Of a DNA stretch of 35,330 nt, positions 2,448-26,978 are shown piece after piece; positions within the stretch are counted from its first letter, which is position 1; every line of letters starts with the position of its first letter. The DNA lies in the NCBI GenBank assembly GCA_003225335.1, contig QHZE01000071.1, positions 1-35,330 on the forward strand. The letters run 5' to 3'. Origin of the DNA: Acidobacteriota bacterium. Its GTDB lineage: Bacteria > Acidobacteriota > UBA6911. The translations under genes were made by a program, and so were the position numbers. The notes below the pieces were generated by a model. That model was not told the origin of the DNA. It saw only the letters and a list, made by a program, of their open reading frames with translations, and did no database searches.

Positions 2448-2593
2448 TCCCCTCTCCTGGTGCCGACGCAGGTGCGAGGATCAAGGCAAGATCATACAGG
2501 ATCGGGTGCAATGCCGGGGATCCCTAAACGAAGCCACAGATGAACACAAAGAAAGCAACTTGGCGAGCCCTTAGGGTTCATAATGAAGTCGAA

Positions 2594-4423
2594 ATGATCG
2601 GAAGACCACGTCATGGATCTCGGCTGGCGATCTGTCTGTCTCTGATCTCTTGTCTGTACGCCATGGACCAGATCCCGCCTACGATCGCCAGGCCTCCAAA
2701 GTCGCCGCAGGCGGCGCCCGGCGTCTATTACACGGATATCACGGCCTCGGCCGGGATCGCCTTCCGGCACGTCTCCGGGACCCCGTTAAAAAACTACATC
2801 ATCGAAACTCCCGGCTCGGGCAGCGCTTTTCTCGATTACGACAATGACGGTTGGCTGGATATATATCTCGTCAACGGTTCGACATACCGGGCGCTCGAAG
2901 GGAAGGAGCCGTCTCCGAGGGCCGCGCTTTTTCGGAACAATCGCGACGGGACGTTTACCGATGTGACCGCCCGCGCCGGGGTTTCCAACGATCGGTGGGG
3001 TCAGGGAGTCTGCGCGGGGGACTACGACAATGACGGCTGGCCGGATATCTTTGTCACAAATTACGGGAAGAACCGGCTGTATCATAACAACGGCGATGGA
3101 ACCTTCACGGACCTGGCTGAAAAAGCGGGCCTCGCGCTCGACAGCTGGTCGACGGGATGCGCGTTCGGAGACTACGATGGGGATGGCGACCTGGACCTGT
3201 TCGCAGCCGGTTACGTGCGGTTCGACACGAAACACCTCCCGCCTCCGGCCCATCCGGAGGGCTCGGACAAAGTAACAGATGAAGTACCGGAGAGCAAGAC
3301 GGCTCCCACAGGCGTCGGAGCTTCCTATGCCGCGGGAGCCAGCCATTGTCAGTACCGCGGCAGGCGCGTCATGTGCGGTCCGCGGGGGCTCCCGGGGGCC
3401 GGGGACCATCTGTACCGCAACAATGGGGATGGAACTTTCACGGACGTGAGTGAAAGGGCAGGCGTCGCCGACGCCAGAGGGCTGTACGGTTTCGGTGCAG
3501 CCTGGTTCGACTTCGATGACGACGGCAGGCTCGATCTGCTCGTGACGAATGACTCCACACCTAACTACCTGTATCACAACAAAGGCGATGGCACCTTCGA
3601 CGACGTGAGTTACGCTTCCGGGACGGCTCTGAACGAGAGCGGGCGCGAGCAAGCCCATATGGGTGTGGCCGTCGGAGACTATGACAACGACGGCCGTGAC
3701 GACATCCACATCACGAATTTTGCCGACGACTCGAATGTGCTTTACCACAACGACGACGGCAGGAATTTTTCCGATGTGACCTTTCCGGCCGGCGTCGGGG
3801 AGATCAGCATCCCGTTTCTCGGATGGGGAACCAACTTTCTCGACTACGACAACGATGGTTGGCTGGATTTGTTCGTGGCTAACGGTCATGTGTACCCGGG
3901 AGTGGACTCTGCAAACTGGAACACTTCCTATAAGCAGCGGGCGCTGCTCTTTCGCAATGTGAAAACGCACTTCGTCGAGATCGGCTCCTCCGGAGGCGAT
4001 GGTCTCTGCACCCCCCGTTTGATGCGGGGGTCTGCCACTGGAGACTTCGACAACGATGGAGACGTGGACATTCTGCTGAATAACCTGGATGAGTCTCCCG
4101 CGCTGCTCCGCAACGACGGGGGAAATCGTGCGGGCCACTGGCTGACCATACGGCTGGTGGGAGATGTGAGGCAGAAATGCCCGCGCGATGCCATCGGCAC
4201 GGTTGTGTTTTGCACGGCTGGAGGCGTGCGCCGGCGCGCCGATGTTGCCAGCGGTCGAAGTCACATGTCTCAGTCGGATCTGCGCGTGCACTTCGGGCTC
4301 GGAGCCGCGGCCAAGGTCCAACGGCTCGAAGTGCGCTGGGCCAACGGCCGGGGCGCGGAATACAACGTCCCGGGCGTGGATCGAATCGTTGTGATCGATC
4401 AATCCAAAGGCATTGTCAAGTGA
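2594..4423 (+). CDS. CRTAC1-family FG-GAP/ASPIC-UnbV secreted protein
   Basis: I chose the ATG at 2594 (609 residues) because a hydrophobic signal segment (LAICLSLISCLYA) follows directly. The upstream ATG at 2540 lies in a dispersed-repeat fragment (CCACAGATGAACACAAAG). The mature protein carries seven VCBS/FG-GAP repeats with Ca2+-loop cores such as DYDNDGWLDIYLVNG, DYDNDGWPDIFVTN, DYDGDGDLDLFAAG, DFDDDGRLDLLVTND and DFDNDGDVDILLNN, predicting a seven-bladed calcium-binding propeller. The last ~90 residues (HWLTIRLVG, then FGLG and VRWANGR) are an ASPIC/UnbV domain. Such proteins are exported and common in Acidobacteriota; their substrates are generally unknown. No partner gene is adjacent. 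Confidence 0.9.
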   Translation: MIGRPRHGSRLAICLSLISCLYAMDQIPPTIARPPKSPQAAPGVYYTDITASAGIAFRHVSGTPLKNYIIETPGSGSAFLDYDNDGWLDIYLVNGSTYRALEGKEPSPRAALFRNNRDGTFTDVTARAGVSNDRWGQGVCAGDYDNDGWPDIFVTNYGKNRLYHNNGDGTFTDLAEKAGLALDSWSTGCAFGDYDGDGDLDLFAAGYVRFDTKHLPPPAHPEGSDKVTDEVPESKTAPTGVGASYAAGASHCQYRGRRVMCGPRGLPGAGDHLYRNNGDGTFTDVSERAGVADARGLYGFGAAWFDFDDDGRLDLLVTNDSTPNYLYHNKGDGTFDDVSYASGTALNESGREQAHMGVAVGDYDNDGRDDIHITNFADDSNVLYHNDDGRNFSDVTFPAGVGEISIPFLGWGTNFLDYDNDGWLDLFVANGHVYPGVDSANWNTSYKQRALLFRNVKTHFVEIGSSGGDGLCTPRLMRGSATGDFDNDGDVDILLNNLDESPALLRNDGGNRAGHWLTIRLVGDVRQKCPRDAIGTVVFCTAGGVRRRADVASGRSHMSQSDLRVHFGLGAAAKVQRLEVRWANGRGAEYNVPGVDRIVVIDQSKGIVK

Positions 4424-4440: not shown

Positions 4441-4617
4441 CCACAGATGAACACAGATAAACACAGATCGGTGTTCATCTGTACTACTAACGCGAAAATC
4501 CTTCGCAACCAAGGCAAGGATTTTTCGGCCAAATGACCAATGACAAATAGAAGTCAGAGGTCCGGACAACGAACTGCCATTTGTCATTTTTCATTGGTCA
4601 TTTTTCATTTGTCATTT
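4441..4617. repeat. Composite heptamer palindrome, copy A
   Basis: The element has three modules in order. The first is a 10-bp-period segment from 4441 (CCACAGATGA, ACACAGATAA, ACACAGATCG). The second is a segment containing GAAAATCCTTCGC and AAGGATTTTTCGGCCAAATG. The third is a palindrome with left heptamers AATGACC and AATGACA, a spacer holding GTCCGGACAACGAACTGC, and right heptamers TTGTCAT, TTTTCAT, TGGTCAT, TTTTCAT, TTGTCAT. It fills the gap between two convergent genes. The same order recurs at 16130-16269 and partly at 11901-12059. Confidence 0.85.
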
Positions 4618-4619
4618 TC

Positions 4620-7600
4620 TTATCCTGTGCTTACCAGGCGCTGCTTGAGGGCAATTTCCGCTTCCTCAGGATGCTTGCCGGCAAGGAAATCAGGAAGCTG
4701 GAACCTCCTTTGCTCCCTGAGGACGGTCAAACTGAGCATTGCCCTGGGGCGAAGAGCGCTCAAAGAACCGTCAAGAACTCGCGCAGCCTCCAGAAGCACT
4801 GCGCCACCCAGGGAGCGTAATGCATCGGCTCCGTAAATTGAGGAGAGCTTTCGATGAAAGGTGTCAGTGATATCGGCCCCGAATGCAGCGAGCCGTTCGA
4901 TGGCCTCCAGTGGTTGGTTCGGCGAAGCCTCCAGGAACGCGGCAACGTCTTTTAGCACCGCGGCTGCCCCTTTTACGAGATCAGCTTCCACAAACAACAA
5001 TGACCCGAGTAGTTGCTCGCCAGGATCCTCGGTCAGTCCCATCCGCTGGAACTTGCCGGCCTGATCCGCCGTAAAAAACTGCGCCCGCTTTCTTTGCTCT
5101 TCCTTGTCACAAGCGAGCAGACGGTCGCGAGCGGCCGTCAGCGCGGAGCGTAGCCTGCCGGTCGATTTTTCGTTCATAACCATCTTTTCGCGCAGGTCCG
5201 GGGCGGGGAAATCCCAGTAAAAGTCGTCCTTTTCCGTTTCGTTGAGAATCAACCCGTCTCCGTCCAGGCGGGCGGAGCTGCAAGGCGGTATCGAGGCCCA
5301 AACCAGCAGCGCCGCGGCGGCCGCATCTTGTTGAAGCCTGTCCGGGTCCTGGAAGTAGGAAAAAGGGATCAGCGTCTTTAAAGCGGCCTGAAGGCTTTTT
5401 GAGATCTCCTTTGACAGCACCTCGCGCTGGGGCTCGTTTCTTGGAAGAAGCCATGCCGCCAGCGCCGAACCTGGCACCATCACTTCCATGGCAGTCAGCA
5501 CGTCGCCGAATTCATTGCGACCGTTACCAACCGCGTCCTCGACCGCACGATCGAGATCCAGGTACCATGTCTCCAGGCTGCCCGGGCGCTGGAACAGCTC
5601 CGGCATGTACTCGAAAATGAATGGCTGTGTCAGGTGTTTCAGGTCGGCAAGGCGCATGTTCTCCTTGGCGTGAACAAACTGGCAGGACACCGCCGTCGAA
5701 TCGCGCGAATGCACACGCACGCGGCCTTGCAGAGCAACTGTAAGACTCAGAGCTGCGGTGAGCTGGCTGCGGAGCCGATTCTTCACCCGGACAACGTCAC
5801 GGGCATCGATCTCGTAGACCAGAACGCGACTCCCGTCGCCGGCTGCGGTTACTTTGGCGAGACTCTTGTTGACGGATTCCTTTGTGAAATTGAACTTCGG
5901 CAGGGTTACCTGAACCACACCCTTGCGGTCGATTTGGTGCGTAAGAACGGCTTGATTCAAGCGGACTCCGTCTGTCTTCACCACCAACAGCCTGTCGAGG
6001 TTGCTTTCAACAACCACATCTCTGAACAGATCCCGCGCGCTTTGCCTGGAGAAATCAAAAACCACATCGACGAGAGCGTTCTTGATCGTGGTTTTCTGGT
6101 AGTTGTAGGCGAAGTCGAACTCGTATTTGCTGGCGATCGCCTCGCGCGCCTTGCTGTGGATCTCCTGCCGCAGTCTCAGCGCGTGGTTGATGGCTTCACG
6201 GACCTTGCCGAGGTTGTGGAAGCCCAGCTCTTCGTCCAGAAACATCGAAAGGCGGTTTACCAGGAAGGGATCGAGCTTTCTGAAAGAGGTTTCATTGGTG
6301 ACCTTTCTCAACTGGTCGAGACTGAGCCGGTCTTCCAGGAATTCCCGGAGGGCTTTCAAAATATTGCCTTCAAGTAACGCAAGAGTTGCCCGCGCTGCTT
6401 CACCCACGCGGCCGAGCTCGTCCGTCAGCGCGAGCAGGCCGCTGGCGGCCACAGCTGTCAACCACTGACCAATCGGCTCATCGTCGAATGCGGTGCCGGA
6501 GATCAGTTTGACCACCGCTTCGCGTCGTTGTTCCGCATCTTCAATTGTCAGAGCCTTCAGTCCGTCGCGGAAGACCTTGTTTGCCTGCTCGTTCATGCTG
6601 CCAAGCAAGGACCAGAGTTTGGAGGGCACCGAGCCTGGAAGCGAGTCCAACTGCTTCAATACCCCAAGAAGAGCGTTGCGCGCATCGCTGAAGGCTGTGG
6701 CAGGGTCAAAACCGGTTGTCGCGCGGAGCAGTTCCAGCCCTATTTCGCTCGGCAGTCCGGGAGCGAGATCGGAAAGATCCTGGCTGGGATCCGTCCACCT
6801 TTCGATGGCCTGCAGGTCTTTGATGATCTGGAGCCCGTGCACTCCAAATACGGCTTGGATGAGGGCATCGACTGAATCGGGTACGGGGCTGTCCATGTCC
6901 TGGACCGAGGCCGATAAGTTCAGCCCGAATGTGAACTCTTTCTTCGACAGCTTGAACATTCGAAGCCGGATTTCTTCGTTCTTGTCCGATTCGCGGCCGA
7001 CGAGGATGAGGTATCGGCCGCTGACGGAAAGGCCAAGGGCAACCTTGAGACCTGTCTCGATTTTGAGACCGAGGTCGCCCGTAAGCCCCACTCCATCGAC
7101 GCCTGGAGTCCTGACCTCGTGGACGTAATTGAAGTCATAGCCAAGCTCGGCGGCGAGCCTCACGGCGAGCGAGCCGTCGACCTCGGCCAGGACCCAGGTT
7201 CCTGGCCGGAGATCGGTCGCAGTTTCAACGTGGCGGGGCAGACGCCAGCTGCCGACTGTGCGCTCCACAACGTCCCGAGCGCCCTCACGTCGATCGAACC
7301 GGTGCAAGAGCGCGTATAGGAAGTCCCCCTTCGACTCGTCGTCTGGAAGCGCCAAATCGAGCTGTGGTGTCTCCGCGAGATTTAGCGCCCGGAGGGCATC
7401 CGCCGGGTCGTCGTAGATTCCGGCGCCGGCGCCCGCAGCGCCGGAAAAGCTGAAGCTGACGGCGGTTGAGCCCGTCAGTTGCTTGTCGGCTTTAAATTTG
7501 ACATTTCCGTCAAGCAAAACACGACCCAGTTCGATTCTGCCGTTCGACCGGATAGGGAACGGAGAGTTGGCCAGAATTGCCGATACCACATCGCTGTCGG

Positions 7601-7712
7601 TCGATGGGCTGAGTTCAACACTCGCTACGCTGCCGGTTGAGAGAATCTTGCCGTCCAGGTCAAATTTTTTTACTGAGCCAGGTGATGGCATTTTCGTCCG
7701 CGTAAACTCCAC
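4620..7712 (-). CDS. 1,030-residue protein of unknown function
   Basis: A long, well-behaved coding frame that I do not recognise. The GTG at 7712 gives 1,030 residues; an ATG at 7691 (MPSPGSVKKF) is an alternative, and neither has a clearly spaced Shine-Dalgarno. There is no signal peptide and no convincing transmembrane helix, so it is probably cytoplasmic or released by a non-Sec route. Residues 1-300 look beta-rich and glycine-rich (SFSFSGAAGAGAGIYDDP, GLTGDLGLKIETGLKVALGL, GRYLILVGRES). The remainder is mainly helical and charged (LLALTDELGRVGEAARATLA, EEQRKRAQFF). No nucleotide-binding, protease or metal motif stands out. It stands alone, convergent with the ASPIC gene, with related repeat elements on both sides (4441-4617 and 7720-7765). 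A large structural or scaffold role is only a guess. Confidence 0.8.
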   Translation of the reverse strand: MEFTRTKMPSPGSVKKFDLDGKILSTGSVASVELSPSTDSDVVSAILANSPFPIRSNGRIELGRVLLDGNVKFKADKQLTGSTAVSFSFSGAAGAGAGIYDDPADALRALNLAETPQLDLALPDDESKGDFLYALLHRFDRREGARDVVERTVGSWRLPRHVETATDLRPGTWVLAEVDGSLAVRLAAELGYDFNYVHEVRTPGVDGVGLTGDLGLKIETGLKVALGLSVSGRYLILVGRESDKNEEIRLRMFKLSKKEFTFGLNLSASVQDMDSPVPDSVDALIQAVFGVHGLQIIKDLQAIERWTDPSQDLSDLAPGLPSEIGLELLRATTGFDPATAFSDARNALLGVLKQLDSLPGSVPSKLWSLLGSMNEQANKVFRDGLKALTIEDAEQRREAVVKLISGTAFDDEPIGQWLTAVAASGLLALTDELGRVGEAARATLALLEGNILKALREFLEDRLSLDQLRKVTNETSFRKLDPFLVNRLSMFLDEELGFHNLGKVREAINHALRLRQEIHSKAREAIASKYEFDFAYNYQKTTIKNALVDVVFDFSRQSARDLFRDVVVESNLDRLLVVKTDGVRLNQAVLTHQIDRKGVVQVTLPKFNFTKESVNKSLAKVTAAGDGSRVLVYEIDARDVVRVKNRLRSQLTAALSLTVALQGRVRVHSRDSTAVSCQFVHAKENMRLADLKHLTQPFIFEYMPELFQRPGSLETWYLDLDRAVEDAVGNGRNEFGDVLTAMEVMVPGSALAAWLLPRNEPQREVLSKEISKSLQAALKTLIPFSYFQDPDRLQQDAAAAALLVWASIPPCSSARLDGDGLILNETEKDDFYWDFPAPDLREKMVMNEKSTGRLRSALTAARDRLLACDKEEQRKRAQFFTADQAGKFQRMGLTEDPGEQLLGSLLFVEADLVKGAAAVLKDVAAFLEASPNQPLEAIERLAAFGADITDTFHRKLSSIYGADALRSLGGAVLLEAARVLDGSLSALRPRAMLSLTVLREQRRFQLPDFLAGKHPEEAEIALKQRLVSTG

Positions 7713-7719
7713 AAAATCA

Positions 7720-7765
7720 GACCACCGATGAACACCGAGACACAGATCCCTACTTAAGCCTAAAA
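7720..7765. repeat. Partial composite element (decamer module plus AAAATCCTTCG)
   Basis: This short stretch contains CCACCGATGAACACCGAGAC, CACAGATC, a CTACTTAAGCC segment and AAAATCCTTCG. It follows the first two modules of the composite element at 4441-4617 in the same order and orientation, without the heptamer palindrome. It lies immediately upstream of the 1,030-residue gene. The rest of 7713-8227 holds one strong palindrome (7901-7979) and no credible gene. Confidence 0.55.
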
Positions 7766-8227: not shown

Positions 8228-10741
8228 ATGCGAAATTGTTTGAGAAACATTCGGCCGATCGTACTGCTCTTGCCATTGGCCAGTGGGATCGCGCTCAAGG
8301 GGCCATACTCAAGAGAGAACTTTCCGGGGCGTACCGATGCACCCATATCGATAAGTCGTGCGGACGCAGCCGCGTCCATAAAAGCGCTCGAAAAGGCGGA
8401 TCACGCCGTGCAAGTGCGAGTGATGGAGTCTTATGCCAGGCTGCCGCTGAGCTTTGAAGCCAACCGCGGGCAGATGGATTCGGATGTGAAATTTTTTTCG
8501 CGGGGCAACGGCTATTGCATTTTCATGACCCCGACAGAGGCAGTGCTGACCCTTGGCGGCGGCTCAAGCCCGCAGCCAAAAGGGCCGAAACTGCGCGAAA
8601 GTATTTTGGCTCTCGACCCATCCGTGGTGGCCGCCCGCCCGCGGCGAACCGCCGTCCTGCGCGTGAAGCTGGCCGGAGCCAACCCGAAGCCTCAGCTGAC
8701 AGGAGAAGATGAGCTGCCGGGAAAGGTCAACTACTTCATTGGAAACGACCCCAGGAAGTGGCGGACCAACATCGGCACCTATGCGAAGGTCAGATACCGT
8801 GAAGTGCATCCCGGTATCGACTTGGTCCACTACGGCAATCAGAGACAGCTGGAATACGATTTCGTCGTGGCGCCCGGCGCCGACCCCAAGGCCATACGGC
8901 TAGGTTTCGAGGGCGCCGAGAAGATGGAAATCGACGCTCGCGGCGACTTGCTGTTGCACACGCCGGAGGGTGATGTTCGCCAGCACAAGCCCCTAATCTA
9001 CCAGGAATCCGACGGCACAAGAACGGAAGTCTCCGGGGGGTATTCCCTGAGTCGCAGAAACCAGGTTTCATTCGAGGTGGGGAAATACGATCGAGGCAGG
9101 CCGCTTATCATCGACCCGACGCTGTCTTATTCAACCTATCTTGGCGGAAGCGGCAGCGACGTCGGCAATGCTATCGCAGTTGATTCGGCCCGAAACGCTT
9201 ATGTTACTGGAGCAACTGGCTCTACTGATTTCCCGATCGCAAGTCCCTTCCAGGCTGCTATTGGGGGTTCTTCTGATGCTTTCGTGACCAAGCTAAACGC
9301 TACCGGTTCAGCTCTCGTGTATTCGACCTATCTCGGCGGAAGCAGCGGCGACTACGGACTCGGTATCGCCGTAGATTCGGCCGGAAATGCTTATGTGGTG
9401 GGAGACACGGACTCTACTAATTTCCCCACCGCGAACCCCTTCCAGGCTGCTATTGGGGGTTCTTCTGATGTTTTCGTGACCAAGCTAAACGCTACCGGGT
9501 CAGGTCTCGTGTATTCGACCTATCTCGGCGGAAGCGGCGGCGACTACGGACTCGGTATCGCCGCAGATTCGGCCGGAAATGCTTATGTGGTGGGAGATAC
9601 GAACTCAACTAATTTCCCGACCGCAAGCCCCTTCCAGGCTGCTATTGGGGGTAGTTATGACGCTTTCGTGACCAAGCTGAACGCTACGGGCCTGGCGCTT
9701 GTATATTCGACCTATCTCGGTGGAAACATCAACGATGTCGCCGCCGGTATCGCCGTGGATTCGGCCGGAAACGCTTACGTGACGGGATATACGGCCTCGA
9801 CTAATTTCCCAACCGCAAGTCCCTTCCAGGCTGCTATCGGGGGTGCTTCTGATGCTTTCGTGACCAAGCTGAACGCTACGGGCTTGGTGCTCTTGTATTC
9901 AACCTATCTCGGGGGGAGCAGCGACGACGTCGCCGCTGGTATCGCCGTAGATTCGGCCGGAAACGCTTATGTCGCGGGATCTGCGGGATCGACTAATTTC
10001 CCAACCACAAGTTCCTTCCAGGCCGCCAGTGGGGGTGGTGTAAATGATGCTTTCGTGACCAAGCTGAACGCTACGGGCTCGGCGCTCGCGTATTCGACCT
10101 ATCTCGGCGGAAACAGCTACGACTCCGCCTACGGTATCGCCGTAGATTCAGCCGGAAACGCTTACGTGACCGGAACTACGCTCTCGACCAATTTCCCAAC
10201 CGCAAGTCCCATCCAGGCCACTCATGGTGGCGGTGAGAACGATGCTTTTGTAACCAAGCTGAACGCTACCGGCTCAGCGCTCGTGTATTCGACCTATCTC
10301 GGCGGAAACAGCTACGACTCCGCCCAGGGTATCGCCGTAGACTCGGCAGGAAACGCTTATGTGGCGGGGGATACGGAATCGACTAATTTCCTGACCGCAA
10401 GTCCCTTCCAGGCTGCTACCGGGGGTGGGTCACAAGATGCTTTCGTAACGAAGATCAGCATCACCCCGGTCCCGGCCATCACCGGCCTCAACCCGTCGCG
10501 CAGGATCTCCGGCGGCCGCGCATTCACTCTCACGGTCGTCGGGAGGGACTTCGTCAGTGGAGCGACGGTGCGGTGGAACGGGTCTGCCAGACCGACGATC
10601 TTCGTCACCGCCTCCCGGTTGTGGGCCGCAATTTCGGCGGCCGACATTGCGTCCCCGGGCGTGGCCAGCGTCACCGTTTTTAACCCTCCGCCCGAAGGCG
10701 GCACGTCGACCCGGGTCCCTTTCACTATAAACGGGAACTAA
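8228..10741 (+). CDS. SBBP-repeat beta-propeller surface protein
   Basis: This 837-residue exported protein has an N-terminal hydrophobic segment (IRPIVLLLPLASGIALKG). Residues about 70-300 match the DUF7948-type domain that precedes SBBP repeats in Acidobacteriota (LSFEANRGQ, GKVNYFIGNDPRKW, VHPGIDLVHYGNQRQLEYDF, PLIIDPTLSYSTYLGG). Residues about 303-753 are seven tandem SBBP repeats of 64-65 residues, each with TYLGG, GIAVDSAGNAYVxG, STNFPTASPFQA and DAFVTKLNATG. The last ~80 residues form an IPT/TIG-like beta sandwich ending PFTINGN. The ATG is preceded by GGGAG at good spacing. No sorting signal or membrane anchor is visible at the C-terminus. Function is probably extracellular or surface binding, but the substrate is unknown. 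Confidence 0.9.
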   Translation: MRNCLRNIRPIVLLLPLASGIALKGPYSRENFPGRTDAPISISRADAAASIKALEKADHAVQVRVMESYARLPLSFEANRGQMDSDVKFFSRGNGYCIFMTPTEAVLTLGGGSSPQPKGPKLRESILALDPSVVAARPRRTAVLRVKLAGANPKPQLTGEDELPGKVNYFIGNDPRKWRTNIGTYAKVRYREVHPGIDLVHYGNQRQLEYDFVVAPGADPKAIRLGFEGAEKMEIDARGDLLLHTPEGDVRQHKPLIYQESDGTRTEVSGGYSLSRRNQVSFEVGKYDRGRPLIIDPTLSYSTYLGGSGSDVGNAIAVDSARNAYVTGATGSTDFPIASPFQAAIGGSSDAFVTKLNATGSALVYSTYLGGSSGDYGLGIAVDSAGNAYVVGDTDSTNFPTANPFQAAIGGSSDVFVTKLNATGSGLVYSTYLGGSGGDYGLGIAADSAGNAYVVGDTNSTNFPTASPFQAAIGGSYDAFVTKLNATGLALVYSTYLGGNINDVAAGIAVDSAGNAYVTGYTASTNFPTASPFQAAIGGASDAFVTKLNATGLVLLYSTYLGGSSDDVAAGIAVDSAGNAYVAGSAGSTNFPTTSSFQAASGGGVNDAFVTKLNATGSALAYSTYLGGNSYDSAYGIAVDSAGNAYVTGTTLSTNFPTASPIQATHGGGENDAFVTKLNATGSALVYSTYLGGNSYDSAQGIAVDSAGNAYVAGDTESTNFLTASPFQAATGGGSQDAFVTKISITPVPAITGLNPSRRISGGRAFTLTVVGRDFVSGATVRWNGSARPTIFVTASRLWAAISAADIASPGVASVTVFNPPPEGGTSTRVPFTINGN
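9134..10484 (+). repeat. Seven tandem 192-195 bp intragenic repeats (SBBP)
   Basis: The ACC codon opening each TYLGG motif falls at 9134, 9326, 9518, 9710, 9902, 10097 and 10292. Units 1-5 are spaced by exactly 192 bp and units 5-7 by 195 bp; the extra codon lies at the variable AIGG / ASGGG / ATGGG loop. Long runs are identical between units at the DNA level, including synonymous sites, which indicates recent duplication or gene conversion inside the gene. Confidence 0.9.
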
Positions 10742-11900: not shown

Positions 11901-12059
11901 TTCGTACTACTCACGTTAAAATTCTTCGCGGCCTGGCAAGGATTTTCCGTCAAATGACCAATGACAAATGACAAAGGAACAATGACAAATAGAAGTCAGA
12001 AGTCCGGACAACGAACTGCGATTTGTCATTTTTCATTGGTCATTTGTCATTTGTCATTA
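11901..12059. repeat. Composite heptamer palindrome, copy C
   Basis: After TTCGTACTACTCACG and the module with TTCTTCGCGG and CAAGGATTTTCCGTCAAATG come left heptamers in strict register (AATGACC, AATGACA, AATGACA, AAGGAAC, AATGACA). The same GTCCGGACAACGAACTGC spacer as copy A follows, then right heptamers TTGTCAT, TTTTCAT, TGGTCAT, TTGTCAT, TTGTCAT. The 10-bp module seen in copies A and B is missing. It lies upstream of the TTG-start gene. Confidence 0.85.
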
Positions 12060-26762: not shown

Positions 26763-26794
26763 CAAGACCGCGTAGTACCCTGAGACTGTCTTCG

Positions 26795-26905
26795 CCAATG
26801 ACAAATGACAAATGACAAATGGCCAATGAAGGATGAGGATTTGTAGATTCGTTCCTCGTGCGCAATTTGTCATTTTTCATTTGCCATTTGTCATTTGTCA
26901 TTGGC
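26795..26905. repeat. Heptamer palindrome, copy D (palindrome module only)
   Basis: Left heptamers (CCAATGA start, then AATGACA units and AATGGCC) and right heptamers (TTGTCAT, TTTTCAT, TTGCCAT, TTGTCAT, TTGTCAT, TGGCC) enclose an unrelated spacer with GAGGATTTGTAGATTCG. The decamer and AAAATCCTT modules are absent. It lies between two convergent genes, the ATPase and the TonB-dependent receptor. Confidence 0.85.
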
Positions 26906-26978
26906 CAACTCATTCTCTCCTTCTCAGTTACGGCGAATGTCTCCGTGGTTTCATTTCCGTGCACGGGCGGACTTCCAG

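Follow-up and report, generated by a model that had tools for sequence, protein, structure and literature searches.

What is the role of a gene that encodes a protein of about 1,000 residues, has no match above cut-off in the family libraries searched and lies between copies of an intergenic repeat? This question is raised by a 35,330-nucleotide contig from an Acidobacteriota bacterium (QHZE01000071.1, assembly GCA_003225335.1). We refer to this whole stretch of DNA as the window. The gene is on the minus strand, at 4620-7712, and is a frame of 1030 codons that runs from a GTG at 7712 to a stop at 4620-4622 (1030 amino acids). A first-pass annotation, made from the sequence, had described a large coding gene with no recognisable family, signal peptide or membrane helix, and had read the flanking repeats as the borders of a cassette. 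We find that the gene is real and that, on sequence comparison, its protein belongs to an undescribed family of large Acidobacteriota proteins. In a minority of genomes, family members are clustered with genes for a patatin-like phospholipase, a membrane protein and a peptidoglycan hydrolase. The resulting link to envelope lysis is testable and unproven.

Long homologues, with 29-34% identity, support coding of the 4620-7712 frame. The GC content of the gene (0.58 overall and 0.68 at third codon positions) was compared with that of 11 other frames in the window and falls inside their range or close to it. Note that translation probably begins at an in-frame ATG at 7691 (residue 8), rather than at the GTG, since Met occupies this column in all five proteins of alignment A5. 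The first description of the protein was partly borne out. Pfam and NCBIfam gave no match above the curated cut-offs, and PHROGs, PADLOC and the PDB sequences gave none at all. No signal peptide was seen by eye, and the highest 19-residue Kyte-Doolittle mean (1.63, at 738) was not taken as a membrane helix. No match to a housekeeping family emerged either. The DNA polymerase III beta clamp, DnaN, was considered (Pfam PF02767, E = 0.0053, 17.5 bits against a cut-off of 27; NCBIfam TIGR00663, E = 0.0023, 16.9 bits against a cut-off of 137.65). The relationship was rejected: both matches are below the cut-offs, and the Pfam one occurs in just one of nine family members. Other library models also gave sub-threshold matches. 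Matches of the family profile to PDB sequences, among them a bile-acid receptor (best E = 0.14), are put down to chance. The window protein (P0001) had no match among viral contigs, plasmids and phages, so a phage or plasmid origin was rejected; one homologue, L041, was likewise unmatched among plasmids. Conserved synteny was not seen by eye: none of the window's neighbours was recognised directly beside any homologue. The nearest thing is a VCBS/ASPIC-like protein encoded some 7 kb away from the broken copy in G437.

How widespread is the family? With the window protein as the query, 4 of 60 relatives were found. A profile search matched 13 of 396 genomes across the phylum. Within single classes, it matched 70 of 399 genomes (the class to which G105 belongs) and 8 of 162 (that of G084). 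Divergent and partial matches are included in these figures, and the genome samples overlap. Named relatives are from Acidobacteria, Bryobacterales, Bryobacteraceae and Thermoanaerobaculia. A scan of genome contigs with two short motifs gave 33 stretches, four of which were confirmed; these four are acidobacterial and one is the query's own contig. We read the surroundings of 31 loci, which we call A-type: the window, G001, G018, G031, G084, G105, G295, G408, G415, G437, G455, G480, G531, G546, G578, G580, G599, G605, G643, G676, G688, G697, G701, G713, G739, G742, G745 (the same as L039), L040, L041, G837 and G856. Copies in G001, G437, G455, G605, G701 and G856 are partial or broken, and several loci stop at contig borders. 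Contig-end fragments of G755 were excluded, as were two divergent groups, B (about 960-1090 amino acids) and C (about 810-940 amino acids). Conservation is evident throughout the family. Asp549 is kept by every sequence in a 36-member alignment, Gly290 by 35, His592 by 34, and Arg240 and Gln775 by 32 each. The codons for residues 549-592, from Asp549 to His592, are at 5937-6068 (minus strand); these are the best conserved polar residues and fall in a second beta-rich stretch of the protein. The ratio of non-synonymous to synonymous substitution rates is 0.111-0.151 in four close pairs, three from one genus and one from another.

We turn to the genes that accompany the family. A Pfam-confirmed patatin (PF01734) is directly beside the homologue in 5 of 25 homologue-bearing genomes searched. 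It is upstream in G031, G105, G408 and G415, and downstream in G001. The search of the 25 genomes, made independently of our locus reading, recovered the same five loci; it returned 88 matches in 153 Mb, with split domains counted separately. Only 0.086 such loci are expected within 3 kb (Poisson P = 4e-8, or 2e-6 when G408 and G415, which share a genus, are taken as one). We conclude that the statistical link between the family and patatin is strong. At G084, a 511-residue neighbour is patatin-like by eye and has no Pfam match. Three plasmid relatives of the G415 patatin were found and not used. Separately, a 1124-residue protein with no Pfam match at E 0.01 is encoded upstream of the G031 patatin (L015:2293-5667), and a Tle1-like phospholipase (L036:17398-18588; PF09994, E = 3.5e-40) lies about 6 kb from a divergent family member.

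A second partner is a membrane protein. One family of such proteins, of 353-422 amino acids with three hydrophobic segments each, is encoded directly downstream of the homologue in G031, G105, G408 and G415. The G031 and G105 proteins are 36% identical (E = 1e-70). No PHROG match was obtained for the two scanned, no Pfam family scored above cut-off for the three scanned, and two queries found no relatives on plasmids. An Amidase_2 protein then follows the membrane protein, after 12 bp in G031 and 9 bp in G105. Both amidases match PHROG lysis families (best E 1.4e-19 and 9e-18, respectively); the top PHROG match is a family of unknown function. The pair of membrane protein then Amidase_2 also occurs without the homologue, in G578 C30, G501 and G625. 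In G856, an M15_3 peptidase is encoded 23 bp downstream of the homologue (PHROG endolysin, E = 1.7e-34) and, in G084, a VanY-like peptidase that falls below the Pfam cut-off is upstream. In these four hydrolases, neither a membrane segment nor an evident signal peptide was seen. An endolysin-type peptidoglycan hydrolase is present in the gene cluster at 3 of the 31 loci (G031, G105 and G856), and none was recognised beside the window gene. Membrane-protein matches, weak ones counted, occur in 87 of 399 genomes of one class. Of the genomes that carry an A-type homologue, 13 of 22 have such a match, compared with 74 of 377 among the others (P = 1e-4). Removal of the three profile-building genomes brings the first count to 10 of 19 and leaves the second at 74 of 377 (P = 0.002). 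We grade this statistical link as moderate. Members of the membrane-protein family were seen at L015:12428-13489 and in L118-L128; an endolysin-like amidase follows several of these, and others adjoin a different protein of about 300 amino acids.

What might these partners have in common? They attack lipid and peptidoglycan, and hence an envelope lytic module is the simplest common denominator. We tentatively favour a role in which the protein works on the cell envelope together with a phospholipase, a membrane protein and a signal-less endolysin-type hydrolase. The window gene product would be soluble, of about 1,000 residues, and has no evident export signal. The wall hydrolases lack export signals too, a trait that they share with many phage endolysins and injected effectors. 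The patatin-like partner would degrade lipid, and the endolysin-type partner peptidoglycan. The target could be the producing cell, which would be lysed, or a neighbour, which would be attacked. Our preferred guess is that the large protein contacts, or inserts into, the membrane through a long beta-meander, because the meander is amphipathic. Where the gene is alone, as in the window, partners would have to act in trans, or the protein may act by itself. A more specific version can be put forward: a new acidobacterial module for lysis or attack, in which the meander inserts into membranes while the co-encoded phospholipase and signal-less endolysin-like hydrolase dismantle membrane and wall, either for self-lysis (to release contractile particles, for instance) or against neighbours. 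We consider this version quite unlikely.

The putative meander is encoded at 6897-7196 (minus strand, residues 173-272). A full-length AlphaFold2 model built from five sequences places two long strands here (172-201 and 211-240, each of some 30 residues); confidence is low (mean predicted local distance difference test score, pLDDT, 47.9; predicted template modelling score, pTM, 0.32). The N-terminal domain of the L041 homologue, modelled alone, has strands at 190-220, 223-253 and 263-282 (mean pLDDT 49.7, pTM 0.52). Among the positions printed, family-averaged beta periodicity peaks at about 185-270, the same place as the modelled strands. The full-length model, at low confidence, also has a second beta-rich stretch at about 528-680. 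Hence, of the first-pass picture of a beta- and glycine-rich first third and a helical remainder, the beta-rich first third holds and the all-helical remainder does not. Foldseek gave no match, to a known pore former or to any other fold, at E ≤ 0.001. VIA gave, for these low-confidence models, best scores of Z 6.1 (AlgE, root-mean-square deviation 6.8 over 128 residues) and Z 5.5 (4.5 over 83 residues). The structures returned by Foldseek or VIA (among them AlgE and OmpF barrels, streptavidin and gasdermin B helices) match no better than common arrangements would, and we set them aside. Structure prediction thus yielded models, but ones too poor to name a fold. A long amphipathic meander, in a gene that clusters with patatin, would also fit a protein that assists the phospholipase in lipid binding, lipid transfer or as a chaperone, concerned with upkeep of the cell's own membrane and not a weapon. 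This is fairly unlikely: it leaves the endolysin-like hydrolases unexplained, and the patatin neighbour is missing at most copies.

Several facts weigh against an envelope-directed module. Most copies, the window's included, stand alone, and such orphans are the main weakness. At 24 of the 31 loci there is no recognised patatin or wall hydrolase beside the gene (25 if the sub-threshold G084 peptidase is uncounted); note that neighbours were recognised by eye, with selected ones scanned, and that L040 is among the 24. The three patatin matches in the window genome are all off the window's contig. In the same genome, a profile search with two sequences left the membrane protein unmatched, an empty answer of little weight. 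In the window copy, the N-terminal beta region is also shorter, by about 34 residues that the other A-type members reaching that far have kept. The membrane-protein comparisons ignore kinship. When restricted to strong matches they give 4 of 19 genomes against 8 of 377 with the profile genomes removed (P = 0.0015, or 2.8e-6 with them in), but the threshold for 'strong' was set after the list had been seen and two of the four remaining genomes share one genus. Finally, the amphipathic signal is not strong (of 5000 shuffles, 96 and 86 equal or exceed the values for the two strands) and would also suit a soluble beta-sheet protein, while models with a mean pLDDT of 48 and 50 permit no fold assignment. 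The 24 loci without such partners could mean that the protein is cytoplasmic, has an unrelated function, and that clusters with patatins or hydrolases are local accidents. We regard this as rather unlikely, since patatin lies beside the gene far more often than chance predicts, and the link to the membrane protein persists, more weakly, once the clustered genomes are dropped.

Might the protein instead be delivered to other cells? In this case, it would be the cargo, effector or loading partner of an extracellular contractile injection system or of type VI secretion. In G105, a contractile injection cluster (L031:11455-19000), identified by Pvc16_N (9.9e-28), sheath (1.5e-17) and tube (1.3e-29) matches, lies some 2 kb downstream of the cluster of patatin, homologue, membrane protein and amidase. 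The homologue at L040 adjoins a type VI cluster with VipA, IcmF, DotU and two VasE, and the window genome encodes TssK. However, these are single cases, one contractile injection border and one type VI border in 31 loci. Given that such clusters have 20-25 genes, one neighbour of this sort per 30 or so loci is unsurprising by our estimate, which was not computed. Hence, we count neither as significant. The first-pass pointer towards secretion or phage-tail-like genes around homologues proved useful, though the evidence it brought, from these two loci, is weak. Furthermore, no tail-sheath match turned up in the window genome, whose TssK gene is on a different contig. Delivery by either machine is therefore unlikely. 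Contractile injection and type VI effectors include phospholipases, amidases and pore formers. Enzyme activities at homologue loci are similar, and one locus is beside each machine, but the family showed no effector marker domain and most copies are away from such machines. In the paper library searched, no paper mentioned contractile injection systems, Acidobacteriota and patatin together, and none mentioned patatin-like proteins, N-acetylmuramoyl-L-alanine amidase and contractile injection together. Further genes of the G105 injection cluster were seen by eye (L129).

The family could also belong to a system for phage defence or conflict in which the phospholipase would be the killing enzyme. 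PADLOC phospholipase-effector models give weak matches to the patatins (E 3.5e-5 to 1.4e-7), and a TIR-WD40 protein is encoded about 5 kb from the G018 homologue (L014:1210-4350). We consider this explanation improbable. No other defence protein was recognised by eye at homologue loci, and neither P0001 nor the two membrane proteins scanned had a PADLOC match at E 0.01.

The putative envelope module can also be compared with known systems. As in phage holin-endolysin cassettes, some loci have a membrane protein and signal-less amidase, or an M15 endolysin-type hydrolase, directly beside or after the gene. Unlike in those cassettes, the three-segment membrane protein has no PHROG match in the two cases scanned, and the loci add a phospholipase and a 1,000-residue protein. 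No phage structural genes were recognised at these loci, the one contractile injection cluster aside. The five patatins recall patatin-like phospholipase systems, although the window protein itself is no patatin. Acidobacteriota are among the commonest soil bacteria and, to our knowledge, little has been reported about killing, lysis and competition by them. A large conserved family that is unmatched in the libraries searched, and whose genes in some genomes accompany those for phospholipases and endolysin-like hydrolases, offers a concrete entry point.

Do the repeats have a role? The first-pass annotation placed copies on either side of the gene. The copy at 4441-4617 is a genuine composite interspersed repeat, intergenic and outside the gene. 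The copy at 7720-7765 is not borne out at that length; its alignment to the 4441-4617 repeat spans just 30 nucleotides (83%, E = 0.002), and what is present is a short partial copy of the repeat's first part at 7714-7742. The 29-nucleotide opening motif also occurs where the neighbouring gene (2540-4423) starts, at 2526-2554, so this gene has the motif on both sides too. Elsewhere in the window, the composite repeat is found around 11904, 16128, 19374 and 26800. Across the 7.5-Mb genome, 81 alignments correspond to about 40 distinct places among the candidates scored (40 of 566 first-look candidates; palindromic copies are often listed on both strands). Comparison of both repeats with 30 homologue loci by blastn gave no match at E 0.01 in any. 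Since the repeat has about 40 genomic places, flanks the neighbouring gene and is absent from all 30 homologue loci, it is a property of this genome rather than of the gene. We conclude that the repeats around the gene are incidental, ordinary genome-wide repeats. That they carry the gene as a mobile cassette, as first read from copies on both sides, is very improbable, and the base composition of the gene is ordinary. It would be a mistake to take the interspersed TGACAAATGAC-type repeats of this genome for cassette borders. Palindromic TGACAAATGACAAAT-type intergenic repeats were also seen, at 26782-26917, 11953-12058 and 4530-4616, with tens of copies genome-wide.

The C-terminal region of the window protein, residues 741-995 (profile positions 755-998; codons at 4728-5492, minus strand), is shared with stand-alone proteins. 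These are mostly of about 300-390 amino acids and come from other Acidobacteriota. Two of the four stand-alone loci examined adjoin a Fur-like regulator and an FHA/phosphatase protein, both named by eye; the proteins concerned, of about 310 residues, are at L093:4314-5240 (minus strand) and L094:4382-5326 (plus strand). Beside the gene in the window, 2540-4423 (plus strand), convergent with it, encodes a 627-residue protein with repeated DYDNDGW-type motifs, of the VCBS/ASPIC type by eye. On the other side, 8228-10741 (plus strand) contains at least seven direct repeats, each 192-195 nucleotides long, and encodes a protein of 837 residues that resembles SBBP-repeat proteins.

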